Of a DNA stretch of 64,000 bases, positions 42,279 through 57,586 are shown piece after piece. Below the pieces are notes generated by a model. It saw only the letters and a program-made list of their open reading frames with translations, did no database searches and was not told the DNA's origin. The stretch comes from Natronohydrobacter thiooxidans (lineage in GTDB: Bacteria; Pseudomonadota; Alphaproteobacteria; Rhodobacterales; Rhodobacteraceae): the NCBI RefSeq assembly GCF_001884735.1, contig NZ_MJAP01000019.1:1-64000 (forward strand), read 5' to 3'. Each line of letters starts with the position of its first letter. Positions within the stretch are counted from its first letter, which is position 1. The position numbers and the translations under genes were made by a program.

Positions 42279-42306
42279 ATATTGTTGACAATATCGTTGA
42301 CAATAT
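42279..42306. promoter_or_regulatory. tandem overlapping operators of module A regulator
   Basis: ATATTGT-TG-ACAATAT (42279-42294) is a perfect 7-bp-arm palindrome. A second copy, ATATCGT-TG-ACAATAT (42291-42306), has one mismatch, shares four bases and is shifted by 12 bp. The TTGT-NN-ACAA core suits FadR/FCD-type GntR proteins. They lie 63 bp before the racemase start and about 80 bp before the regulator start. Confidence 0.7.
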
Positions 42307-42368
42307 TGCCTCGTGGGATTTGCCACGCTACACTGATAGGATGCTCACTTCTGACTGAAGGGACAGTC

Positions 42369-43115
42369 ATGCAGCTTTTTGTTTATAATCCGAATTCCAG
42401 TCGTGAAATGACCGCCCTGATCGCGCGGTCGGCCGAAGCTGCTGCGAGCCCCGGTAGCCATATCGTAACCGACTGTGCCCGCCCACCGGTGCCGCCCAGC
42501 ATCGAAGGGTATCATGACGAAGCCGTCGCGGTTCCGGCGATGCTGGATGCGCTGCGCCGGGCCGAGGCAGAGGGCGCGCAGGCTCATGTCATCGCCTGTT
42601 TCGACGATCCCGGCATTGGCGCTGCGCGCGAGGTGGTGGCCGGGCCGGTCATCGGCATCGCACAGGCGGCGATGCAGGTGGCGAGCGTTCTGGCGGCGCG
42701 GTTTTCGGTCGTCACCACCCTGCCCCGCGCCATTCCCATCATCGAGGATCTGGCCCTGCGCTATGGCGTGTCGCATGGATTGCGGCGCGTGCGGTCGGTC
42801 GATCTGCCTGTTCTGGGGATTGAGGCCGACCCGGAGCGCGCGAAATCCCTGCTGCGCGGCCAGATCATTGCGGCGCGCGATGAGGATGGGGCCGAGGCGG
42901 TGATCCTGGGTTGTGCGGGCATGTCGGATATGTGCCATGCACTCTCTGCCGAAACCGGCCTGCCGGTCATCGACGGGGTGCATGCCGCCGTCCGGCTGGC
43001 CGAGGCGATGGCGGGGGGCGGCTACCGGACCTCGAAGGTAGGCGCCTATAGCTGGCCGCGTGACAAGTCGGGGGATCTTGTGCACACAACGCCCCTGCGC
43101 CGCCCTGCCGAGTGA
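42369..43115 (+). CDS. hydantoin racemase (Asp/Glu racemase superfamily)
   Basis: A 248-residue enzyme of the Asp/Glu/hydantoin racemase family. The two expected catalytic cysteines are present, Cys77 in VIACFDDPGIGAAREV and Cys182 in VILGCAGMSD; hydantoin racemases carry the pair near 76 and 181. It would interconvert D- and L-5-monosubstituted hydantoins, supplying a stereospecific hydantoinase and carbamoylase; neither is in the window, so an allantoin-like or other ureido compound is also possible. The ATG at 42369 has AAGGGA upstream. It is converging on the ABC importer operon. Confidence 0.85.
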   Translation: MQLFVYNPNSSREMTALIARSAEAAASPGSHIVTDCARPPVPPSIEGYHDEAVAVPAMLDALRRAEAEGAQAHVIACFDDPGIGAAREVVAGPVIGIAQAAMQVASVLAARFSVVTTLPRAIPIIEDLALRYGVSHGLRRVRSVDLPVLGIEADPERAKSLLRGQIIAARDEDGAEAVILGCAGMSDMCHALSAETGLPVIDGVHAAVRLAEAMAGGGYRTSKVGAYSWPRDKSGDLVHTTPLRRPAE

Positions 43116-43134: not shown

Positions 43135-44127
43135 CTAACCGGCATCTTGCAAGGCAGTCTGATCGAGCCTGCGGCAGCGCGCATGATGGCCTGCGGTGAT
43201 CTGCTCCATCCCGATCTGACCGGCGCGACAGCCCGCATCCGCGAGAAAGCAGCGCGGCGCGAAGGGGCAGCCATCGGGCAGATTGGCCAGATCCGGCGGC
43301 GCACCGGGGATGGCGTCGAGTTTCGTACCCTTCACCATCGCATCATGGGCGCGGCTTTTCAGCAGACCCAGCGTATAGGGGTGGCGCGGGTTGCGGATCA
43401 GGTCGCGGGCCGTGGCCTGCTCGACGATCTGGCCTGCATACATCACCGCGATCCGGTCCGCGACCTCGACCGCCGCGCCGATATCATGGGTGACGAAGAT
43501 GATCGACAGGCCCAGATCGCGCTGCAACTCGCGCAAGAGCAGCAGAACCTGAATCTGCACGGTGGCATCCAGCGCGGTGGTGGGTTCATCGGCCAGCAGC
43601 AGTTTCGGGCGGCACGAGAGCGCGAGCGCGATCATCGCACGCTGGCGCATGCCGCCGGACATTTCATGCGGGTAATTGTCGAGCCGCGATTTCGCGGAAG
43701 GAATGCGCACGCGGTCGAACAGTTCCAGCGCACGGGCGCGGGCGTCGTCGCGGCTGATCGGCTCATGGCGGCGGATGGTCTCCACGATCTGATCGCCCAA
43801 GGTATAGACCGGATCGAGCGCCAGAAGCGGTTCCTGAAAGATCATCGCCGCCTCGCCACCGCGAAAGGCCGATAGCTGGCGCGTGTTCATTGCCATCACA
43901 TCGCGCCCGCCGACAAGGATCTGCCCCTGCAGTTTCGAGCGTTTCTCGGGGTTCAGGCGCATCACCGCGCGCATGGTCACGGATTTTCCGGAGCCGGACT
44001 CGCCGATCAGCGCCACGGCTTCGCCCTGCGCCACGTCCAGCGAGACGTCATTGACTGCACGCACAGGGCGGGTGCCGCCGGTGAAAGTCACGCCCAGATT
44101 GCGGATAGACAGGAACGGGGCAGTCAT
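43135..44127 (-). CDS. peptide-type ABC transporter ATP-binding protein (DppD/OppD)
   Basis: A 330-residue ABC ATPase. Walker A is GESGSGKS, signature [12 protein letters not shown] and Walker [13 protein letters not shown]. The C-terminal oligopeptide/dipeptide extension contains the cysteine-rich end CPFAPRC..C..GC of OppD/DppD proteins, which can hold an iron-sulfur cluster. It pairs with the second ATPase, whose stop overlaps its start by 4 bp. Last gene of the importer operon. Confidence 0.92.
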
Positions 44128-45140
44128 TCGGCGGCCTCCTTGGTTGTGGGCGCGACATAGCCTGAGGCCGGATCATGCGCGTGGCAGGCGACCAGGTGCT
44201 TTTCGCCGCGTTGGGTCAGCGCCGGGTCGCGCTGCGCACAGACCGAGGCCACGATCGGGCAGCGCGTATGGAAGCGGCAGCCGGATGGCGGGTCGATCGG
44301 ATTGGGGGGATCGCCGGTCAGGGCCGGTTCCATCGTACGATTATCAGGGTCCATCGAGGGCATGGAGGACAGAAGCGCGCGCGAATAGGGATGCAGCGGA
44401 TCGTCATAGAGCGCCTCTGCATCGCCGATTTCCGCGACCTGCCCCAGATACATGACCATCACCCGGTCGGAGACAAAGCGCACCACATTCAGATCATGGC
44501 TGATGAAGATATAGGTCAGCCCGAATTCGGCCTTCAGATCCGCGAGCAGGTTCAGCACCTGCGCTTCCACGGATTTGTCGAGCGCCGAGACCGCCTCGTC
44601 AAGGATGATGATCTTGGGCCGCAAGGCCAGCGCGCGGGCGATGTTGACCCGCTGTCGCTGCCCGCCCGAAAGCTCATGCGGATAGCGGCCCGCGAAACGC
44701 GCAGGATCCAGCCCGACGCGGGTCAAGAGGTCATGGGTGCGCGACAGGGCTTCGCCCGAGGGGGTGCCATGGACACGGGCACCGAAGGCGATATTGTCCT
44801 CGATGGTCAGGCGCGGGTTCAGGGATGAATAGCTGTCCTGAAACACCATCTGCACCTGCCGCCGAAAGGCTTTGAGCGGCAGGTCCGAGCTGCCCACAAG
44901 CTTGCCCTCGAAATAGAGCGCGCCCTCGTCCGGGGTAATGAGCTGCATCAGAAGCCGCGCGGTGGTGGATTTGCCGCAGCCGGATTCGCCCACCACGCCG
45001 AGGGTTTCCCCGGCAAAGACTTCGAGATCCACCCCATCGACCGCATGGACGTTCTTCACGGTCCGGCCCAGAATACCCCCCTTGATCGGGAAGTATTTGC
45101 GCAGGCCGCGCACGGTCAGGATTGGGTTTTCCGTACTCAT
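44124..45140 (-). CDS. peptide-type ABC transporter ATP-binding protein (DppF/OppF)
   Basis: A 338-residue ABC ATPase. Walker A GESGCGKST, signature LSGGQRQRVNIA, Walker B IIILDEAVSALD (Ala-Val in place of the usual Pro-Thr after the Glu), and the C-terminal oligopeptide extension with CRFHTRCP. The ATG at 45140 (MSTENPILTV) is 4 bp inside the end of the upstream permease gene. Energises import together with the DppD-like subunit. Confidence 0.92.
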   Translation of the reverse strand: MSTENPILTVRGLRKYFPIKGGILGRTVKNVHAVDGVDLEVFAGETLGVVGESGCGKSTTARLLMQLITPDEGALYFEGKLVGSSDLPLKAFRRQVQMVFQDSYSSLNPRLTIEDNIAFGARVHGTPSGEALSRTHDLLTRVGLDPARFAGRYPHELSGGQRQRVNIARALALRPKIIILDEAVSALDKSVEAQVLNLLADLKAEFGLTYIFISHDLNVVRFVSDRVMVMYLGQVAEIGDAEALYDDPLHPYSRALLSSMPSMDPDNRTMEPALTGDPPNPIDPPSGCRFHTRCPIVASVCAQRDPALTQRGEKHLVACHAHDPASGYVAPTTKEAAE

Positions 45141-46021
45141 TGGCGCACCTCCATGGCAGAGCGTAGCCCGTCGGACAGCATGTTGAAGGAAATCGAGACC
45201 AGGAAGATCATCGCACCCGGCAGGGCCGCGACCCAGGGCTGGGCATAGATCGCCGTGCGCAGCGTGTTCAGCATCAGCCCCCATTCCGGGTTGGGCGGGC
45301 GCACGCCAAGGCCAAGGAACGAAAGCCCTGAGGCCAGGATCATGCTGACCGCGATCAGCGAGGTCGCATAGACGAAGATCGGCCCCAGCACATTGCCCAG
45401 CACATGCACGCGCACGATGGTCAGCGCCCCTGCCCCCGAGGCGCGCGCGGCCTCGATGAAATCTGACGAACGCAGACGGGTCGTGACCGATTCGGCCACG
45501 CGCGCGATGGGCGGGATGAACACCACGGTCAGCGAGAAGAGCGCATTGCCCAGCCCTGCCCCCAGCGCGCCGGACAGCGCCACCGCAAGCAGGACCGAGG
45601 GGAAGGCATAGAAGACATCGACCGTGCGCATGATCAGCGTGTTGGTCCAGCCGCCCGCATAGCCCGCGATGATGCCGATGGCAGAGCCGAGGAAGAAGGC
45701 CAGCACAACCGGCGTCACCCCCATCAGCAACGACAGTCGCCCGCCCCAGATCAGGCGCGAGAGCATGTCGCGGCCCAACTCATCCGTGCCGAGCAGATGG
45801 CCTTCGGTTCCGATGGGTTTCAGCCGGTTGATCAGCCGCCCGTCCAGCGGATCCATTGGGGCGATCAGCGGCGCGAAGATGGCGGCCAAAGCGATCAGCG
45901 CGAGCACAGCGGCCGCGGCCATCGCGGTTTTGTCGCGCATCAGGCGCTTGCCTACATTTTGCCAATACCCGGCACTGCGCACCGGATTGAGTATCGGTTG
46001 GCTCAGGGTTGCATCGACCAT
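45137..46021 (-). CDS. peptide-type ABC transporter permease (DppC/OppC)
   Basis: A 294-residue permease with six membrane segments, the N-terminal OppC-type extension and HLLGTDELGRDMLSRLIWGGR, the typical DppC segment. The coupling (EAA) loop is EAARASGAGALTIVRVHVLGN. The ATG at 46021 follows the DppB-like gene with a 4-bp gap. Confidence 0.92.
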   Translation of the reverse strand: MVDATLSQPILNPVRSAGYWQNVGKRLMRDKTAMAAAAVLALIALAAIFAPLIAPMDPLDGRLINRLKPIGTEGHLLGTDELGRDMLSRLIWGGRLSLLMGVTPVVLAFFLGSAIGIIAGYAGGWTNTLIMRTVDVFYAFPSVLLAVALSGALGAGLGNALFSLTVVFIPPIARVAESVTTRLRSSDFIEAARASGAGALTIVRVHVLGNVLGPIFVYATSLIAVSMILASGLSFLGLGVRPPNPEWGLMLNTLRTAIYAQPWVAALPGAMIFLVSISFNMLSDGLRSAMEVRQ

Positions 46022-46025
46022 GGGC

Positions 46026-46976
46026 TTACCTCTTGATGCGCGGATCAAGCGCGCTTTGCATGATATCGACCACCATATTCAGCACCACGAAAAACAGCGC
46101 CAGCACGAGGATCGTGCCTTGAAGCAGCGGCAGATCGCGCTGGAAGATGGCGGAATTCAGCAGCATTCCGGTGCCGGGCCAGCTGAACACGGTCTCGATC
46201 AGGATCGAGCCGCCCAGCAGATAGCCAAGCTGCACGCCCATGACGGCCAGCGCGGTCGGTGCGGCGTTTTTCACGACATGCATGAAGACGCCGAATTCGG
46301 ACAGGCCGCGCGCACGCAGCCCGATGACGAATTCCTGCGCAAGGATTTCCGCCACCAGCGCGCGCACGGTGCGGGCGATGATCCCCATGGGGATCACGCT
46401 CATGGTGATCGCGGGCAGCACCATATAGCTGAGATGCACCATATCGAATCTCCACTGGCTGGATCCCCCCGGCCCCGCGCCTGCGGCGGGCAACCAGCCA
46501 AGCTGCGCCGAGAAGATGATCACCAGCACCATGCCCAGCCAGTAATGCGGCACCGACACGCCAAAGACCGCTGCGGCAGAGGCGGCCTTGTCCAGCGGCG
46601 AATTGCTGAAATACCCGGCCACGAAGCCGAAGAAGCAGCCCAGCACAAAGCCGATCGCGGTTGCGACCGCCGCCAGCATCAGCGTATTGCCGACCGCGCG
46701 CATGACTTCGGTGGTCACCGGGCGCCCGGTCGCGATGGATGTACCCAGATCGCCCTGCAGCGCGCGTCCCAGCCAGAGGATGAATTGTTCAGGATAGCTG
46801 CGGTCAAACCCGTAGAGTGTCCGCAACCGGTTCTGCAACTCGACCGAGGCATCTGCAGGCAGGATCGAGATCAGCGGATCACCGGGCGAGATATGGACAA
46901 GTGCAAAACAGACCACGGAGACACCGAACAGCACGGGGGCCGTGTAGATGATCCGTCGCAAGCTATAGCCAAGCAT
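46026..46976 (-). CDS. peptide-type ABC transporter permease (DppB/OppB)
   Basis: A 316-residue permease with six membrane segments, a long periplasmic loop after the first, and the EAA loop GLRARGLSEFGVFMHVVKNAAP. It starts MLGYSLRRIIYTAPVLFGVSV. The gene lies 68 bp after the binding-protein gene, separated by a hairpin. Confidence 0.92.
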   Translation of the reverse strand: MLGYSLRRIIYTAPVLFGVSVVCFALVHISPGDPLISILPADASVELQNRLRTLYGFDRSYPEQFILWLGRALQGDLGTSIATGRPVTTEVMRAVGNTLMLAAVATAIGFVLGCFFGFVAGYFSNSPLDKAASAAAVFGVSVPHYWLGMVLVIIFSAQLGWLPAAGAGPGGSSQWRFDMVHLSYMVLPAITMSVIPMGIIARTVRALVAEILAQEFVIGLRARGLSEFGVFMHVVKNAAPTALAVMGVQLGYLLGGSILIETVFSWPGTGMLLNSAIFQRDLPLLQGTILVLALFFVVLNMVVDIMQSALDPRIKR

Positions 46977-47010
46977 TGGGCGTTCCTTTCGGCTGGGCGG
47001 AAAAGCAAGA

Positions 47011-47033
47011 GGCCCCGGACAGGATCCGGGGCC
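47011..47033 (-). terminator. intra-operon hairpin between binding-protein and permease genes
   Basis: GGCCCCGG, a 7-nt loop, CCGGGGCC, 11 bp after the binding-protein stop (minus strand), followed by TCTTGCTTTT. Such hairpins usually raise binding-protein mRNA over the membrane components by blocking exonucleases or by partial termination. Confidence 0.6.
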
Positions 47034-47044
47034 AACTGTTCAGA

Positions 47045-48673
47045 TCATTCGATATCCATCGGCGCGATGTCAATGAACCAGCTTTTCGGCTGCACCACCC
47101 CGGTGACGCGGCTGGACATGGCGCGCGGGCCGGCATCATGCGCCACCCAGACGAAGGGCGCCTCTTCGACGATACGCGCATGCAACCGGGCCAATGCCGC
47201 GTCGCGGGCATCATCCTCGAAGGTGGTCCGCGCGTCCTCGATCAGCGCGTCAAACTCGTCATTGCCGAAATGCCCCCAGTTGTTGGAAACCGGCGGGAAG
47301 GTTTGGGTGGAGGTGAAGCGCACCATGGCAAAGAACGGGTCCATCGTGGCAAAGGTCACATTGATGGCATGCGCGCCATTCGCGCTTTCGTCATAGGCCC
47401 CGCGACGCCAGTTGGTGAAGAGCGTGTTCCACTCCAGCACATCAAGCTCGACATCGAAATAGCACTCGCGCAGGGCCTGTTGCAGATACTCGTTCATCGG
47501 GATCGGCTGCATCTGCCCCGAGCCGGAGGCCGAGGTCTGCACTTTCACTTTCAGCGGATTGTCCGCTGAAAAACCCGCTTCCGACATCAGGCGCTGCGCT
47601 TCGTCCAGATCGTAGCGGATATCGAAGGAAGGGTTGCCCCACCAGGGATGGGTCGGATCCACAGTTCCTTTGGGCGACCCCATGAATCCACCCAGCAGGA
47701 TCGAGAGTTCATCCCGGTCAAAGCAGAGGTTGGCGGCATGACGCACACGCTTGTCCAGCCAGGGGGAACCTTCGGCAAAAGAGAGCTGCCATGGCCAGAC
47801 ATGCGGCTGCGGATTGGCGTAGATCGTGAAACCACGCGCTTCGATCTGGGCAATCGCGTCAGGGGCCGGTGCTTCGATCCAGTCTACCTGACCCGACAAC
47901 AAGGCCGCCGTGCGCGCATTCGCCTCGGGCAGTGGGACCAGAACGACACCATCGAGCTTGGGCGTGCGGTCGGGGTTCCAGTAATCTTTGTTTGCAGCCA
48001 GTTCCAGCCGCTCGCGCGCGGCGAAATTGGTCACGCGGAACGGGCCGGACCCGGAAGGATCAGCAGCAAAGGCGGCCCACGCGGCCTCGGAATCGCCTGT
48101 TTCGTCAAATTTCGCCTGCCAATGCGCGGGCGAGGCAATGAAGAGGTTGGTCAGGTTGATAGGCAGGAAGCTGTCGGGCTGCGATGTGGTCAGTTCCACG
48201 GTGAATTCGTCGATGGCGCGCGCAGAACGCAATGTTGGCATGCGCGAGGCGGTGACGCCCACCTGGCTGGCGTCAAAATGCGGGGCATCTTCATCCAGCA
48301 CTTTCTGGACGTTCCAGACGATGGCCTCGGCATTCAACGGGCTGCCATCATGGAAGGTGACATCATCGCGCAGATTGAAGATCCATTTGGTGGTATCGTC
48401 GGGGTTGACGGCCCAGCTTGTCGCCAGGGAGGGGATCACGACCGAGGCTTCGTCTTCCTTGGTCAGATCCCATGCCGTGAGACTGTCATAGATTGTCATA
48501 CCCGTGAAGCGATTGCCTTCGAATCCCTGATCGGGCTGTCCCAGCGTGCGTGGAATATCGGCAGCGGTCATGCCGATGCGCAAAATCTTGTCTTGTGCCA
48601 GCGCACTGACAGGGATGGTGAAGAAGGAGGTCGCAAGCAGCGCTGCGATGGTCATATGTTTGGATTGTCCCAT
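47045..48673 (-). CDS. periplasmic solute-binding protein, SBP_bac_5 family
   Basis: A 542-residue protein with a Sec signal peptide (basic MGQSKHM, hydrophobic core, SALAQ cleavage site near residue 26) and the family-5 pattern: WIFNLRDDVTFHDGSPLNAE, then SGPFRVTNFAARERLELAAN and WPWQLSFAEGSPWLDKRVRHA. Peptide-type binding proteins accept peptides, opines, nickel chelates or other amines. Being controlled by the same palindrome as the hydantoin racemase suggests the cargo is a hydantoin, ureido acid or small peptide; this is inference. First gene of the operon. Confidence 0.9.
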   Translation of the reverse strand: MGQSKHMTIAALLATSFFTIPVSALAQDKILRIGMTAADIPRTLGQPDQGFEGNRFTGMTIYDSLTAWDLTKEDEASVVIPSLATSWAVNPDDTTKWIFNLRDDVTFHDGSPLNAEAIVWNVQKVLDEDAPHFDASQVGVTASRMPTLRSARAIDEFTVELTTSQPDSFLPINLTNLFIASPAHWQAKFDETGDSEAAWAAFAADPSGSGPFRVTNFAARERLELAANKDYWNPDRTPKLDGVVLVPLPEANARTAALLSGQVDWIEAPAPDAIAQIEARGFTIYANPQPHVWPWQLSFAEGSPWLDKRVRHAANLCFDRDELSILLGGFMGSPKGTVDPTHPWWGNPSFDIRYDLDEAQRLMSEAGFSADNPLKVKVQTSASGSGQMQPIPMNEYLQQALRECYFDVELDVLEWNTLFTNWRRGAYDESANGAHAINVTFATMDPFFAMVRFTSTQTFPPVSNNWGHFGNDEFDALIEDARTTFEDDARDAALARLHARIVEEAPFVWVAHDAGPRAMSSRVTGVVQPKSWFIDIAPMDIE

Positions 48674-50609: not shown

Positions 50610-51587
50610 ATGTTCCACAAAATGACCAACAGCAACAAAGTCGCGGTCACAGTCGTCGCGTCGATGATGGCCTTTGCGCCCGGTGTCGCGGCTGCAAGCC
50701 CCCTGAGCAATGATCCGATCCGGCTGGTCATTCCCTTTGGCCCCGGCGGCGGCAGCGACATCACCGCGCGCGTGCTTTCGGCAACTGCACCGGAATTCTG
50801 CGGCCCGCGCATTGATGTCGTCAGCATGTCAGGCGCCGCAGGGCTGGAGGCCGTGAATTTCGTGCGCAATGCCGAACCCAACGGTCACACACTTCTCGTC
50901 ACCGATTACGGCCCCATCGTGACCTCGGGCTTTGTCGATGACGTGGACTGGAGTCATGATGACTGGCAGCCGGTGATGAATTTCACCGAATGGCTGCCGA
51001 CCGTCTATACCCGCCCCGATCACCCGATTCAAACCATTGACGACTGGGTCACTGCCGCAACGGAAGAGCCTGCTACGATCACCTTCGGCCATGCCTCGCC
51101 GCTGGGGCTGGTGCATCTGCCGCTGATCCTGTTCGAATCCGTCACCGGGCTGGAGAATATCCATGTTCCGACCTCGGGCGGCGGCGAAACCCGCAGCCTG
51201 ATCATGGGCGGGCATATCGATCTGGGCATGACGCTGCCCCCGAGCATCGCCAGCGAAGTCGCCGCCGGGGAATTGACCGCGCTAGGCATATTCTCGGAAG
51301 AGCGCTCGCCGGTCCTGCCGGACACGCCGACCTTCCGGGAAGCGGGCTATGACGTGGTGCTGCCCGCATGGCTGATGATCTTCGCCACCAGCGATGTCCC
51401 GTCGGAAACCGTCGAACATCTGCAGGATTGCTTCATGGAAGCGCTGGCCTCGCCCACGGCTGTGGCCATGAGCGACCGCGTGAATGCCGGGATCGAGCCG
51501 CTGAACGCTGCTGACTCGACGCGGCTCTATCAGAATACGGTCGAGAATATCGGCAATATTCTGCGCGACATTGGCGAAATCGACTGA
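50610..51587 (+). CDS. tctC: tripartite tricarboxylate transporter substrate-binding protein
   Basis: A 325-residue periplasmic binding protein of the Bug/TctC family with a signal peptide (MFHKMTNSNK, hydrophobic core, PGVAAA). Family segments are IRLVIPFGPGGGSDITARVL and NFVRNAEPNGHTLLV. Family members bind carboxylates, including citrate, aromatic acids and amino-acid-like compounds. First gene of a C-A-B operon. The sequence at the ligand loop does not allow a substrate call. Confidence 0.9.
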   Translation: MFHKMTNSNKVAVTVVASMMAFAPGVAAASPLSNDPIRLVIPFGPGGGSDITARVLSATAPEFCGPRIDVVSMSGAAGLEAVNFVRNAEPNGHTLLVTDYGPIVTSGFVDDVDWSHDDWQPVMNFTEWLPTVYTRPDHPIQTIDDWVTAATEEPATITFGHASPLGLVHLPLILFESVTGLENIHVPTSGGGETRSLIMGGHIDLGMTLPPSIASEVAAGELTALGIFSEERSPVLPDTPTFREAGYDVVLPAWLMIFATSDVPSETVEHLQDCFMEALASPTAVAMSDRVNAGIEPLNAADSTRLYQNTVENIGNILRDIGEID

Positions 51588-51636: not shown

Positions 51637-51704
51637 TTTCACGGCGCCGCGCGCAGATATGCCGTGCCGCCTTTTCCCGGATATTGCAGTTTTGGGCGGC
51701 CACC

Positions 51705-53222
51705 ATGTTGGAGTCTTTCATCCCCGCGCTGATGCTCGCCTTCAGCCCGGAAGTTATCCTTTATGTCGCCATCGGCGTGTTCATGGGTGTCACGCTGGGG
51801 GCTATTCCGGGCTTGAGCGGGGATATGGCCATCGCCATTCTGCTGCCCATTGTGTTTTTTCTGGAACCGGCTGCGGCACTGGGCCTGCTGACCGGCATCT
51901 ACAAGGGCGGGATGTTCGGCGGCTCGATCTCGGCCATCTCCTTCGGGGTGCCGGGGACGCCCGGTTCTGCCGCGACAGCGATTGACGGGTATCAGGCCAA
52001 GCTGAAAGGCACCCCCAACAAGGCGTTGATGACGGCTTTGTATTCATCGGTGATCGGCGATTCGACCAGCGATCTGGTTCTGATCTTTCTGGCCTTGCCG
52101 CTGGCCATTGTCGCCCTGACCTTCGGCCCGGTCGAGTTTTTCGCGCTCTATGCGTTCTCGCTTCTGCTGATCTCGGCGCTGACCAAGGGCAAGGTCGCCA
52201 AAGGCGTCGCGATGGCGGCTCTGGGCGTGCTTCTGGCGATGATCGGGCGCGACCCGATGGGCGGAACCTTGCGTCTGACCTTCGGCATCCCTGAACTGGC
52301 GGGGGGGCTTGCGCTGATCCCGGTGCTGGTGGGCATTTTTGCTGTGTCCGAACTGATCATTCAGTTGTCCAAGGCATGGATGGAACGCGCCGAGCGCATC
52401 ATGGACGACACGCGCCAGAGGGCCCAATCGCTGCTGGGCGATTATGATGCCAGCAAGGACAAGCTCACCTTCAGCGAATTCCGCTTCACGCTGAAAGCGA
52501 CATGGATCGGCACCACCATGGGCACGCTGATCGGCGCACTGCCCGGTGCGGGATCGTCGCTGGCGGCTTTCATCAGTTACGGGCTGGCGCAACGCTTCTC
52601 GCGCAAAGGCGACGAGTTCGGCAAAGGCTCGCTGGAAGGGGTCGCCGCCGCCGAGGCAGGCAACAGCGCGACATCCGGCTCGACCCTGATCCCGCTCTTT
52701 GCCTTCGGGATTCCGGGCAGTGCCACGGCGGCCCTGTTCGGCGCCGCCTTCATCCTGATGGGCATGACGCCCGGACCAAGGCTGATCTATGATCATACCG
52801 AAGTGATCTATGCGCTGTTTCTGATCCTGATCTATGCCAATTTCATCAATCTGTTCCTGTCCCAATTCCTGCTGCCCTTCTATTCCAAGATCGCCATGAT
52901 CCAGTCGCGCATCCTGCTGCCGATTGTCTGTGTGCTGGCGATTCTGGGCACATTCGCGGCGGGAAATTCGGTCATTGATGTCTGGGTGCTGTTGTTTGCA
53001 GGGTTTCTGGGGGTGGTGCTGCGGATGTTCAACTTCCCGCTGGCACCGCTGATCCTGGGGTTCATCGTCGCACCGGGGGCCGAGCGCGCGCTGCGCCAGT
53101 CGCTGCTGATCGGGCGCGGAGACTGGATGCATCTGCTCTCCAGCCCTATCGCAATCGGGCTCTATACGGTGGCGGCGATCATGATCCTGACATTCACCCT
53201 TGTCCTGCGCGACAAGAAATAA
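51705..53222 (+). CDS. tctA: tripartite tricarboxylate transporter large permease
   Basis: A 505-residue membrane protein with about 11-12 segments. The duplicated family motif is visible as GVTLGAIPGLSGDMAIAILLP in the first half and GTLIGALPGAGSSLAAFISYG in the second. KGGMFGGSISAISFGVPGTPGS and IPLFAFGIPGSATAALFGAA are the paired TctA signatures. The ATG at 51705 (MLESFIPALM) is favoured over an in-frame TTG at 51684. Confidence 0.92.
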   Translation: MLESFIPALMLAFSPEVILYVAIGVFMGVTLGAIPGLSGDMAIAILLPIVFFLEPAAALGLLTGIYKGGMFGGSISAISFGVPGTPGSAATAIDGYQAKLKGTPNKALMTALYSSVIGDSTSDLVLIFLALPLAIVALTFGPVEFFALYAFSLLLISALTKGKVAKGVAMAALGVLLAMIGRDPMGGTLRLTFGIPELAGGLALIPVLVGIFAVSELIIQLSKAWMERAERIMDDTRQRAQSLLGDYDASKDKLTFSEFRFTLKATWIGTTMGTLIGALPGAGSSLAAFISYGLAQRFSRKGDEFGKGSLEGVAAAEAGNSATSGSTLIPLFAFGIPGSATAALFGAAFILMGMTPGPRLIYDHTEVIYALFLILIYANFINLFLSQFLLPFYSKIAMIQSRILLPIVCVLAILGTFAAGNSVIDVWVLLFAGFLGVVLRMFNFPLAPLILGFIVAPGAERALRQSLLIGRGDWMHLLSSPIAIGLYTVAAIMILTFTLVLRDKK

Positions 53223-53238
53223 GAACGGGGGCAAAGCG

Positions 53239-53721
53239 ATGCTGAAACCGCAATTTTTCGGGCTTCTGACGCGGCAGGATTTCTACACTGGGCTGGTCAC
53301 GATTGCTGTGGGGGCTATCGGACTGTTCGATATTGCCTATGGCGACTGGCGTCCGGGGCCCGGACTCGGGCCGCATGCCTTTCCGCAACTGGCCTATATC
53401 ACATTGGTCTGTGCGGGTGTCGTGATCATGATCGAAGCCGTGTTTGGCAAATCTGACCAGTTTCCCGAAAACCTGCGCGCGGTTGTCAGCACGGGCGTGG
53501 CGCTTCTGGCCATCGGGATGGGGATGTTCTGGGCGATTGGCAAGCTGGGCTTCATGGTCAGCGTCTGCATCACCCTGATCGGGGCCAGCTTTGTGCTGAC
53601 CCGCGATCCGTTGCGCCACTGGCCCAGCACGATTGTGGTGCCGGTGGTGGCGACAGCGGTGATCTGGCTGTTATTCGTCAAGCTGATCAATGTGCCGCTG
53701 CCGCGCGGGCTGTTGTTCTAG
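53239..53721 (+). CDS. tctB: tripartite tricarboxylate transporter small membrane subunit
   Basis: A 160-residue protein with four hydrophobic segments, fitting TctB. It begins [21 protein letters not shown], with [20 protein letters not shown] following. GGGGG lies 8 nt before the ATG. In most clusters tctB precedes tctA; here it comes last. Its TAG stop interlocks with the stop of the convergent racemase-like gene. Confidence 0.85.
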
Positions 53722-54755
53722 CCCCGGTCCCGCAATGGCCAGGTGTCATTGACGCGGTAGCCACGCGGCCAGGGGTCTGCAGGGTCGAGCAGCAACTGGC
53801 GCGTGTCGGTGATCCATGCGCGGCCCGAAATCTCGGGCACGATCGCGGGCTTGCCGCCAAGCGTGAGGGTCTCGACAATCTGCCCCTGAAACTCCGACCC
53901 GATCAGCGAGCGCGCCGTCAGCATCCTGCCTTTGCCAATCTGTCCGCGCCGGTGCATCAGCGCCAGCCGCGCCGAAACTGCCGTGCCCGTGGGCGAGCGG
54001 TCGATCTTGCCCGGCTCGATCACCACGGCATGATGCGTCACCAGCCCTTGCGGGCTGTCCGCGGGCGGGGTGGCGAACAGGCAAAACGAGATATGCCGCC
54101 AGTCGGGATTTTGCGGATGGGTGAAGCCAAGCTGCGCATTGGCCGCCGCTGTGATCCTCCTGCCCAGCGCGGCAATCTCGCGGGCCTCATGCGCGGCCAT
54201 CTCAAGCCCCAGATCCCGCGCATTGACCACCACGAAACTGTCGCCGCCATAGGCGGTATCGACCTGCAGGCGTCCCAGCCCTTCGACCTCCAGCCCCGCG
54301 TCAAGCTGGCTCGCAAAAGATGGCACATTGCGCAGGAAAATCCGCTGCGCCTTGCCCTCCGCGCAGTCCGCGCGCACATGGATCAGCCCGCCGGGCGCTT
54401 CCAGAACCATATGGGTTTCAGGTTCCTGCATCCCGATAATGCCGGTATCGAGCAGCACGGTCGATACACAGATCGCGTTCGAGCCTGACATCGGTGGGGT
54501 ATGTTCCGGCTCCATGATGATGAACCCCAACTGCGCGCGCGGGTCTTTGGGCGGCACCAGCAGATTGACATGGCGAAACACACCGCCGCGCGGCTCGTTC
54601 AGCACGAAATCCCGCAAGGCACCGTCCTGATGGATCCAACGCGCCTGCTCCCAGAGCGTGTCACCGGGCGGAGGGGCAACGCCGCCCACGATCACATCGC
54701 CCACTTCGCCCTCGGCATGGCAGCCGACAATCTGGATCGCACGGGTCGAGCGCAT
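53718..54755 (-). CDS. proline racemase superfamily protein with Ser/Thr in place of the catalytic cysteines
   Basis: A 345-residue member of the proline racemase / 4-hydroxyproline epimerase / trans-3-hydroxyproline dehydratase superfamily. The first catalytic position is Ser90 ([10 protein letters not shown] instead of MCGH) and the second Thr256 (DRSPTGT instead of DRSPCGT). Known trans-3-hydroxy-L-proline dehydratases have Cys/Thr, epimerases Cys/Cys or Ser/Cys. I recall homologues with this Ser/Thr form, without knowing an assigned activity. It follows the Cys/Cys epimerase and is preceded by a 17-codon leader frame ending TGATG at its start codon. A dehydratase-like role on an imino acid is inferred. 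Confidence 0.8.
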
Positions 54756-54808
54756 CAGCCGACGCCCCGCAGAGTGCCCGGAGCGGTGCTGTCAGCGATC
54801 ATTGTCAT
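54755..54808 (-). CDS. putative 17-codon leader ORF translationally coupled to the racemase-like gene
   Basis: Reads [17 protein letters not shown] and stops. AGGAG lies 6-7 nt before its ATG, and its TGA overlaps the ATG of the downstream gene as TGATG. It may be a coupling or attenuation leader, or a remnant of a longer N-terminus lost by frameshift. No regulatory residues stand out (one Arg, no His/Trp/Pro run). Confidence 0.35.
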
Positions 54809-54919
54809 GGCATTCTCCTGAACTGGTCATCTGTGCTGCAAACTGAAACGGGCGCTGCCGGGCAGATCAGGCCGCCTGTCAAACTCGCGGCGCTGAGTTG
54901 CCCCGCCCTCTGGCGCAGA

Positions 54920-55849
54920 TCATGCGGCGGGGATGCCCGCCACATAGGGATCACCGGGCGCAAAATGCAGATCGGCTTCCGCCGTGACCCATGCGCGCCC
55001 GCGGATCGTGGGGATGATCCCGCCATGCCTGCCCGCGACATGGCTGAGATGATATCTGCTGCCGATGATGCTCTGCTGCACCCAGGGATCGCCCGGCTGA
55101 AGCTGCCCATCCGCCGCAAGGCAGGCCAGTAGCGCGGATGTGCCGGTCCCGCAGGGCGAGCGGTCATAGCTGCCGCTCGGACACAGAACGAAATTGCGCG
55201 CATCGGCCCCGTCGCAGGGGGCGAGCAGGACCACATGATCAATCCACGCCCCGCCCGCGCCAGTCCAGCCCTGATCGTGCAGCGTCCGGCGAATGCGCAG
55301 GGTCGCGTCGGTCAGTTGGCGGATATTCGTGATATCCAGCGCACAGGGCAGATCACGGGTGATGAAGAACCAGTTCCCACCCCATGCAATATCCCCCGTG
55401 ACCGGCCCAAGCCCCGCCACATCTACGGTGACCGCCTTGTGCAACCGGTAGCTTTCGACATTGGTGACGCTGGCCTCGTGACCGGAATGCAACTCCAGCG
55501 TCACCACGCCGACGGGGGTTTCCAGCCGGTGCTGTCCGGGTCCGATCCGGCCCAGATGCGCCAATGTGATCGCCGTGCCGATGGCGGCATGGCCGCACAT
55601 TCCCAGCATCCCGACCGCATTGAAATAGATCACGCCTGCCACAGAGTCAGGATGCGCGGGCGGCACCAGCAGCGCGCCCACCATGGCCTCGGTCCCGCGC
55701 GGCTCGCGCGTTACCGAGTTGCAGAACGCATCATGCGCGCGCGCCAGCCGCGCCGCGCGCTCCGCCACGCTGCCCGCGCCCAGATCCGGCCCGCCCGAGA
55801 GGATGACGCGGGTCGGTTCGCCCTCGGTATGGCTGTCGATCACGCGCAT
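54920..55849 (-). CDS. lhpA: 4-hydroxyproline 2-epimerase (proline racemase family)
   Basis: A 309-residue enzyme with both catalytic cysteines: Cys85 in GMLGMCGHAAIG and Cys233 in DRSPCGTGTSA. RVIDSHTEGEPTRVI opens the chain, as in 4-hydroxyproline epimerases, which convert trans-4-hydroxy-L-proline to cis-4-hydroxy-D-proline. The start overlaps the end of the DHDPS-family gene by 10 bp. In the standard pathway the product is then oxidised by a D-hydroxyproline dehydrogenase, not present in the window. True proline racemase activity cannot be excluded from motifs alone. Confidence 0.82.
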   Translation of the reverse strand: MRVIDSHTEGEPTRVILSGGPDLGAGSVAERAARLARAHDAFCNSVTREPRGTEAMVGALLVPPAHPDSVAGVIYFNAVGMLGMCGHAAIGTAITLAHLGRIGPGQHRLETPVGVVTLELHSGHEASVTNVESYRLHKAVTVDVAGLGPVTGDIAWGGNWFFITRDLPCALDITNIRQLTDATLRIRRTLHDQGWTGAGGAWIDHVVLLAPCDGADARNFVLCPSGSYDRSPCGTGTSALLACLAADGQLQPGDPWVQQSIIGSRYHLSHVAGRHGGIIPTIRGRAWVTAEADLHFAPGDPYVAGIPAA

Positions 55850-56799
55850 TTCAGATGCGGCTCCAGCCCCTGCGCCCAATCCGCATACCAGTTGCGGAAC
55901 AGATCAAGCTGCGCCTGCGCGAAGCCGCGCTGGCTTGGGCTGAGCTGATCGGTGGGGTTGATGTGGAGCGCGTATTCCTGCTCGCCGAGACAGGTCAGAA
56001 GGTATTTGTAATAGAGCACCAGATCCACACCTTCGTCGAAGGAGGACAGCACCGCCATCGCCTGATCAAGCTCCTGCGCACGAACCCGCGCGCGCGCATC
56101 CCCGGCTGCGGCCTTGCGCGACAGATCGACCAGATGCAGCACTTCGCACGGCAGCACATTGCCGATACCGGTAATCGCCCCGCGCGCGCCGTAATTCACG
56201 AAGCCTTCGACCACCATCGTATCGACACCCACCATCAGCGAGATCTCCGCATCCTGACTGGTGATGAATTCCGCCGCTTGGCGCAGCGCCGCGCTGCCCC
56301 CGAATTCCTTGAACCCCACAAGGTTCGGATGCTCAGTACGCAGGGCAAAGAACAGCTCTGCCCCGGTGGCATAGCCGTAATAGGGGCTGTTATAGATCAC
56401 CGCAGGGATATCGGGCGCAGCCGCCAGAATGGCCTTGAAATGGTGGCGCTGCGCTTCGACTGAACTGCCCCGCGAGAGGACGCGCGGAATGACCATCAAC
56501 GCCTGCGCCCCCAGCTTCGCGGCATGGGCGGCATGGGCGACCGCTTGGGCGGTGTTCACAGCCCCCGTACCCACCATGACCGGCACCCCCGCGCCGACAA
56601 GCCGGGCAACCCCGTCCATCCGGTCGGCATCGCTGATCAGCGGCCAGTCGCCCATGGACCCGCAATACACGACCCCGGACATGCCCGCCGCGACCATCGC
56701 CTCCCCCTTGCGCACCAACGCATCAAGGTCCGGGCTGTGATCGGGTTTGCAGGGCGTCATCAGGGCAGGGATACAGCCATTCAGCATCTCTGTATTCAT
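55840..56799 (-). CDS. lhpC: DHDPS/NAL-family lyase, probable 1-pyrroline-4-hydroxy-2-carboxylate deaminase
   Basis: A 319-residue TIM-barrel aldolase of the dihydrodipicolinate synthase/N-acetylneuraminate lyase family. The Schiff-base lysine is Lys164 (LVGFKEFGG) and the catalytic tyrosine Tyr136 (VIYNSPYYG). Next to a 4-hydroxyproline epimerase it is best read as the hydroxyproline-pathway deaminase, which gives 2-oxoglutarate semialdehyde; DapA itself would normally stand elsewhere. It is first of a three-gene operon and divergent from its likely regulator. The ATG at 56799 (MNTEMLNGCIPAL) was chosen; the frame is open further upstream through the operator region. Confidence 0.8.
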   Translation of the reverse strand: MNTEMLNGCIPALMTPCKPDHSPDLDALVRKGEAMVAAGMSGVVYCGSMGDWPLISDADRMDGVARLVGAGVPVMVGTGAVNTAQAVAHAAHAAKLGAQALMVIPRVLSRGSSVEAQRHHFKAILAAAPDIPAVIYNSPYYGYATGAELFFALRTEHPNLVGFKEFGGSAALRQAAEFITSQDAEISLMVGVDTMVVEGFVNYGARGAITGIGNVLPCEVLHLVDLSRKAAAGDARARVRAQELDQAMAVLSSFDEGVDLVLYYKYLLTCLGEQEYALHINPTDQLSPSQRGFAQAQLDLFRNWYADWAQGLEPHLKCA

Positions 56800-56850
56800 G
56801 GGGATCTCGCTTCGATGAGGTTTCGCTTGCGGGCAAATATACAGCTTCCC

Positions 56851-56871
56851 ATTTTGGATACAATATACAAT
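56851..56871. promoter_or_regulatory. candidate operator of module B regulator
   Basis: ATTTTGGATACAATATACAAT: two adjacent ATACAAT repeats (56858-56864, 56865-56871) and the 13-mer ATTTTGGATACAA that matches, inverted, the element before tctC. It lies between the divergent regulator and catabolic genes. Confidence 0.55.
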
Positions 56872-56923
56872 CAGACTCACTTCCCCTCTCTCGTGGCACT
56901 GTGTAAGAAACCAGCAGGAGCAC

Positions 56924-57586
56924 ATGACGATGAAGATCCAGGCATATGACATTTCCAAGACCGCCTCGGCCGCAACGCTGATCTTCGACGCGATTCGTCA
57001 GGCGATCATCACCGGGGATCTGGCGCAGGGCGAGCCATTGCGGCAGGAAGACATCGCGCGGGCCTTCAATGTCAGCCGCATCCCGGTCCGCGAGGCGCTG
57101 CAGAAACTGGAACAGCACGGGCTGATCGTGTCACAGCGCTACAAGGGGGCCGTGGTCGCCGGGCTGTCGCTGGAAGAGGCCACCGAAATCTTCGAATTCC
57201 GCGCCTTGCTGGAGCCAGAAGTCATCCGCCGCGCCGTGCCGCATATGTCGCCACAGGTTCTGCAAGAGGCGGCACGCTGCTGCGCGGCCTTTGGCAATGC
57301 GGAAGACCCGATGCAATGGGGCGATCTGAACCGGCGTTTCCACACGACGCTCTATGCGGCCAGCGGTCTGGCCTATCATCTGGAGATGCTGAACAAGGCG
57401 ATGGACCGGATCGACCCCTATCTCCGGGCGCAGCTCTTGCTCAGCGACGGGATGCAGCGCGCCAATCGCGAGCATCTGATGATCGTCGATGCCTGCAAAT
57501 CCGGGCAGGCCGACAAGGCCGCAGATCTGACCCGCCAGCATATCCTCGGCGCACAGGAATCACTGTCGCGTCATTGGCAGAAGTGA
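56924..57586 (+). CDS. GntR-family (FCD subgroup) regulator, module B
   Basis: A 220-residue regulator. The winged helix contains LAQGEPLRQEDIARAFNVSRIPVREALQKLEQHGLI with the typical SRIPVREAL recognition helix; the FCD domain has EFRALLEPEVIRRA, DLNRRFHTTLYAASG and REHLMIVDACKSGQAD, retaining the usual metal-binding Asp and His residues. AGGAG lies before the ATG. Divergent from the hydroxyproline-type operon, which it presumably controls together with the TTT transporter. Confidence 0.9.
   Translation: MTMKIQAYDISKTASAATLIFDAIRQAIITGDLAQGEPLRQEDIARAFNVSRIPVREALQKLEQHGLIVSQRYKGAVVAGLSLEEATEIFEFRALLEPEVIRRAVPHMSPQVLQEAARCCAAFGNAEDPMQWGDLNRRFHTTLYAASGLAYHLEMLNKAMDRIDPYLRAQLLLSDGMQRANREHLMIVDACKSGQADKAADLTRQHILGAQESLSRHWQK

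Follow-up and report, generated by a model that had tools for sequence, protein, structure and literature searches.

Ser/Thr enzymes of the proline racemase superfamily were described in 2014 by Zhao et al., who reported that the 4K7G enzyme is a trans-3-hydroxyproline dehydratase (t3HypD) with a catalytic Ser90 and a non-catalytic Thr256 (PMC4113996). According to this work, Ser90 of the cluster 3 Ser/Thr enzyme is held by Asn93, and Thr256 sets its side-chain methylene against the so-called anomeric carbon, a non-catalytic orientation. The reaction is presented as a syn-dehydration: a single base abstracts the alpha-proton, and the conjugate acid of that base likely aids departure of the 3-hydroxyl (PMC4113996). 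The dehydration product gives Delta1-pyrroline-2-carboxylate, which is converted to L-proline by reduction (PMC4113996, PMC4364671); cis-3-hydroxyproline dehydratase, an enolase-superfamily type enzyme, likewise yields Delta1-pyrroline-2-carboxylate (PMC5144071). Proteins with the Ser-Thr pair were since annotated as T3LHypD, type II (PMC4364671, 2015). Cluster 3, the home of the Ser/Thr enzymes, is described as functionally heterogeneous, some members having both t3HypD and 4-hydroxyproline 2-epimerase (4HypE) activities, and includes the proteins of PDB entries 1TM0 and 4K8L (PMC4113996). One sentence of the same paper assigns UniProt B9K4G4, the sequence of 4K7G, to the Ser/Cys epimerase, contradicting the paper's own figure legend.

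The window analysed here is a 64,000-nucleotide stretch of DNA from Natronohydrobacter thiooxidans. On its minus strand, the ORF at 53718..54755 starts with ATG and encodes 345 amino acids without an internal stop. The protein has Ser at position 90 (motif PMSGSNA) and Thr at position 256 (motif DRSPTGTA). Derived from the ORF start at 54755, the codon of Ser90, which opens the motif S90-G-S-N93, lies at 54486..54488 and that of Thr256, within DRSPTGTA, at 53988..53990, both on the minus strand. None of the four cysteines of the protein (12, 96, 131 and 225) occupies either active-site position. The two catalytic cysteines of proline racemase and Cys/Cys 4HypE are therefore absent, Ser90 and Thr256 standing in their place, as is the first-site cysteine of the Cys-Thr type dehydratases (Ser90). 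An earlier note on this DNA had pointed out hydroxyl residues at both catalytic positions, next to a normal Cys/Cys paralogue. Both observations held: the reading frame is intact and the adjoining protein, encoded at 54920..55879 on the minus strand, carries MCGH (Cys95) and DRSPCGTG (Cys243), counted from its TTG start.

Profile models assigned the 53718..54755 gene to the trans-3-hydroxyproline dehydratases. The window protein scored 604.1 bits against the equivalog model NF047722 (T3LHypDht), above the cutoff of 550, the match spanning positions 1-340 of the 341 of the profile. The next-best models were those for proline racemase (218 bits), NF045511 (203 bits) and 4HypE (193 bits), all far under their own cutoffs; for NF045511, another trans-3-hydroxyproline dehydratase model, the cutoff is 540. 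We take NF045511 to be the model for the type I enzyme. In the profile search, the window protein fell far under each of the cutoffs of PRK13969, PRK13971, NF052296 and PRK13970. Pfam family PF05544 (Pro_racemase) matched only two proteins in the 4.07-Mb assembly, the 53718..54755 product with 428 bits and the 54920..55879 product with 295 bits.

Comparison with proteins of known structure led to the same assignment. The top PDB sequence matches were 1tm0, 4k7g and 4k8l, with E values of about 1e-151. The A. vitis (Agrobacterium vitis) t3HypD (B9K4G4, 4K7G) was identical to the window protein at 229 of 339 aligned residues (67.6%), and Ser90, Asn93, Asp252 and Thr256 bear the same numbers in both proteins. 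An AlphaFold model of the window protein, built from 18 aligned sequences (pLDDT 91.9), had 4K7G as its best structure match in Foldseek (TM 0.96). VIA-align superposed 338 residues of this predicted model on 4K7G with a Z score of 54.6 and an rmsd of 1.2 A. The model places both residue 90 and residue 256 immediately before a helix (H91-104 and H257-269, respectively). Two differences were noted: Thr256 is followed by GTAV in the window protein, whereas 4K7G has GTGC, and 4K7G was solved with pyrrole-2-carboxylate, whereas the window protein is known from its sequence and a predicted model. By analogy with the aligned Ser90 of 4K7G (PMC4113996), Ser90 of the window protein, with Asn93 on one face, would act as the general base/acid, and Thr256, on the opposite face, would be non-catalytic, as reported in the same paper. 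The SGSN and DRSPTGT motifs of the window protein are shared by 1TM0 (Brucella melitensis) and 4K8L (Ochrobactrum anthropi). The former is titled a putative proline racemase; the PDB title of the latter gives both activities, although the data deposition of PMC4113996 puts this near homologue among the 4HypEs.

Other characterised members of the superfamily are further removed. The Cys-Thr type dehydratases, human 7QPO and Thermococcus litoralis 6R76, have the superfamily fold and the reaction proposed for the window protein, but their first site is described as Cys in the corresponding papers, where the window protein has Ser, and their identity to it is 26-32%. The A. vitis Ser/Cys 4-hydroxyproline epimerase (PDB 4LB0) resembles the window protein in its first-face Ser with SGSN; it differs in having Cys at the second site, where the window protein has Thr256, in being an epimerase, and in its overall sequence (38-39% identity). 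The Cys/Cys 4HypE of PDB 4J9W has the fold in common with the window dehydratase and differs by its two cysteines. The window's own 54920..55879 protein belongs to the same Pfam family as the dehydratase and has two cysteines, an MCGH motif and 28% identity to it.

We then surveyed the residue pairs of related proteins. Matches above the NF047722 cutoff were present in 35 of the 147 genomes searched: 32 genomes, including that of the window, had an intact Ser/Thr protein, two (G068 and G089) had Ser/Cys, and the remaining copy (G044) had SGSN followed by an in-frame TAG four codons past the Ser, with Thr at the second site. The finding of the same pair, intact, in 32 of 35 genomes indicated that Ser/Thr is neither chance nor a sequencing error. 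More distant proteins in the survey included eight with Ser/Cys, and the epimerase-like proteins comprised 20 distinct Cys/Cys sequences and one Cys/Gly. The survey comprised 66 rows, with each of the window's two proteins entered twice; duplicates of the same sequence and matches aligned over fewer than 200 residues had been removed before counting, so that partial copies (for example in G009, G023 and G031) are excluded from the counts. The Cys/Gly protein (L102:467-1471, genome G087) has the motifs MCGH and DRSPGGTG, and the parts of the literature consulted make no mention of this residue pair. On plasmids, relatives of the window protein occurred in 555 records, 202 of them at 60-80% identity.

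The two Ser/Cys proteins above the cutoff, L088 (G068) and L067:9268-10281, also L026 (G089), are 62% identical to the window protein, and in the tree they fall in an unresolved fork that gives no order for the origins of Ser/Cys and Ser/Thr. L026 scored 618.8 bits against NF047722. Since the model accepts this protein, passing NF047722 alone fixes no residue pair and leaves room for epimerase activity; the model may cover both dehydratases and epimerases.

The dehydratase gene lies in a cluster of hydroxyproline genes. Three plus-strand genes, TctC-TctA-TctB, meet it tail to tail: a TctC-like solute-binding protein (50610..51587; PF03401, 119.5 bits), a TctA-like permease (51684..53222; PF01970, 423.8 bits) and a TctB-like permease, the direct neighbour (53200..53721; PF07331, 55.7 bits). 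The minus-strand genes are the dehydratase gene, the Cys/Cys 4HypE gene (54920..55879) and a DHDPS-family gene (55840..56958; PF00701, 105 bits). The 4HypE scored 471.4 bits against NF052296, above the cutoff of 450, and has 319 amino acids from its TTG start, with an internal ATG at codon 11. No NCBIfam cutoff was passed by the DHDPS-family gene in the profile search, and the part of it common to congeners stops at 56799; a role in the hydroxyproline pathway is suggested by the scheme given in PMC4113996. Divergent from this operon is a gene for a GntR/FCD-family regulator (56924..57586, plus strand; PF00392, PF07729), found at the same position in congeners. To the left of the cluster, an Asp/Glu/hydantoin racemase-family gene (42282-43115, plus strand) adjoins an oligopeptide-type ABC transporter operon (43135-48673, minus strand).

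The expected pathway partner is a Delta1-pyrroline-2-carboxylate reductase of the OCD or MLD2 superfamily. The genome encodes four OCD-family and two Ldh_2-family proteins, families that are candidates for the reductase step. None of these six genes was found on the window's contig, nor did any of them pass an NCBIfam cutoff for a pyrroline-2-carboxylate reductase. The nearest candidate, an OCD-family gene on G000:C34 (L006:1324-2256), scored 240 bits against a cutoff of 322. An Ldh_2-like gene is near the dehydratase in 4 of the 18 relatives' stretches and is 37-41% identical to one of those in the window's genome.

The gene neighbourhood bears on the question of whether epimerisation of 4-hydroxyproline is an additional, or even the main, activity of the Ser/Thr enzyme. 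We consider this unlikely, and its bifunctional form overlaps with the dehydratase explanation. The genes of a 4-hydroxyproline pathway at the locus (the DHDPS-family gene and the Cys/Cys 4HypE) are compatible with it, as are the promiscuity of cluster 3 and the placement of the near homologue 4K8L among the 4HypEs in PMC4113996. A dedicated Cys/Cys 4HypE (NF052296) nevertheless adjoins the gene, which would make a second epimerase unneeded, and Thr256 is non-catalytic in the solved homologue (PMC4113996). The profile scores point the same way, the dehydratase model being passed and three 4HypE models being matched far under their cutoffs, with the qualification that NF047722 accepts Ser/Cys proteins too.

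Comparison with congeners revealed that the window's operon is shorter. Five congeners have two hydroxyproline genes at the position corresponding to 54755-54920, a cis-3-hydroxyproline dehydratase gene and a D-hydroxyproline dehydrogenase-like gene; the window's genome lacks both there. Elsewhere in the genome, no clear ortholog of either was found, the best matches being 31% identical to the cis-3-hydroxyproline dehydratase and 41% to the D-hydroxyproline dehydrogenase-like protein. The copy of the cis-3 enzyme tested, from G012, scored 696.9 bits against the NF043002 cutoff of 500; among the 15 genomes of the genus whose dehydratase exceeds the cutoff, 7 have this enzyme. In the tree, the window's dehydratase groups with that of G002 (support 96/82) within a fully supported group of nine rows. 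The cis-3 gene is present in the remaining seven rows and absent from G002, as it is from the window's genome. The absence of the gene from the nearest relative by this tree indicates that it is probably a loss, and the simplest reading is a single loss of the cis-3 gene in the common ancestor of the window genome and G002. In a further genome of the genus, G025, whose dehydratase lies outside the nine-row group, 4HypE and the dehydratase are likewise immediate neighbours, and the two genes are missing.

Two other arrangements were observed among these relatives. In G002, an assembly that is 87% complete with 8% contamination, just the last 60-80 residues of 4HypE precede the dehydratase (L106:2148-2408), which reflects either a genuine truncation or a faulty assembly. 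G033 carries an aldehyde dehydrogenase (L062:7173-8980) in the position of the congeners' oxidase, with a short oxidase-like fragment next to it, and a more complete copy of the oxidase lies on a different contig. The closest model for this aldehyde dehydrogenase is alpha-ketoglutaric semialdehyde dehydrogenase, with 498 bits against a cutoff of 770.

Directly upstream of the window's dehydratase gene is a 17-codon open frame (54755..54808, minus strand) whose TGA overlaps the dehydratase ATG (TGATG). G002 has a counterpart of 18 codons in the same place (L037:1445-1501, plus strand), dissimilar in sequence to that of the window. Both mini-frames have a purine-rich stretch before their ATG and the TGATG overlap with the dehydratase start. 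At the junctions examined, in G001, G012, G013 and G033, the cis-3 gene ends GTGATG, with the same overlap. The mini-frame looks like preserved translational coupling, possibly a leader in the missing gene's place. One could extend this to a broadened or bifunctional role for the dehydratase (dehydratase plus epimerase, or action on a new hydroxyproline isomer), acquired after the loss of the cis-3-hydroxyproline dehydratase and D-hydroxyproline dehydrogenase-like genes and translated through coupling to the new 17-codon leader, a scenario that we regard as very improbable.

The earlier note listed Cys/Cys, Cys/Thr and Ser/Cys as the known variants of the superfamily, a list to which the Ser/Thr type of 2014 (PMC4113996) has to be added. 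From the apparent lack of an established reaction it had proposed a dehydratase or a new activity on the same imino acid pool. The dehydratase half of this proposal agrees with NF047722 and 4K7G; the other half found no support. The note had itself named beforehand what would refute it, namely a close homologue that carries the same two residues and has been characterised, and B9K4G4 / 4K7G is such a homologue. A new or unknown reaction was accordingly rejected. About a third of the residues differ from 4K7G, including GTAV against GTGC after Thr256, and these leave a new activity, with a different hydroxyproline or some modified form of proline as substrate, for example, only a very slim chance, given the full-length equivalog match above its cutoff and the shared numbering and best fold match with 4K7G. 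GTA is the usual form after Thr256, being found in 27 of the 32 intact proteins with this residue pair, and GTAV was likewise rejected as a sign of altered function. That the protein is a decayed or inactive racemase is the least credible reading of all: it would fit the loss of both cysteines, the operon without two genes present in congeners and the in-frame TAG of the G044 copy, but it was rejected on the intact Ser/Thr protein in 32 of the 35 genomes above the NF047722 cutoff, the catalytic Ser of the solved homologue (PMC4113996), and the intact frame of a gene whose GC3 (0.786) resembles that of its neighbours (0.769 and 0.765).

Collectively, these data indicate that the window protein is very probably a trans-3-hydroxyproline dehydratase of the Ser/Thr type, acting by one-base dehydration at Ser90; we infer its activity, substrate range and downstream reductase. 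In the mechanism proposed, Ser90, which lies where a helix begins and is held in position by Asn93, would take the alpha-proton of trans-3-hydroxy-L-proline, and its conjugate acid would likely aid the departure of the 3-hydroxyl in a syn elimination. The product would tautomerise to Delta1-pyrroline-2-carboxylate, to be converted to L-proline by an NAD(P)H-dependent reductase. Thr256 would occupy the place of the second Cys of the racemases without serving as an acid/base residue, and this one-base chemistry would favour elimination over epimerisation.

The protein is a typical representative of an established subfamily, for whose Ser/Thr active site a crystal structure has been available for some ten years. 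The two Ser/Cys relatives above the cutoff are a warning that the family model alone leaves the active site unfixed. Ser/Thr at the two positions is an accepted signature of the dehydratases and no sign of unknown chemistry, which settles the matter of the missing cysteines; for annotation, this pair together with SGSN tells the dehydratase from its Cys/Cys epimerase neighbour.
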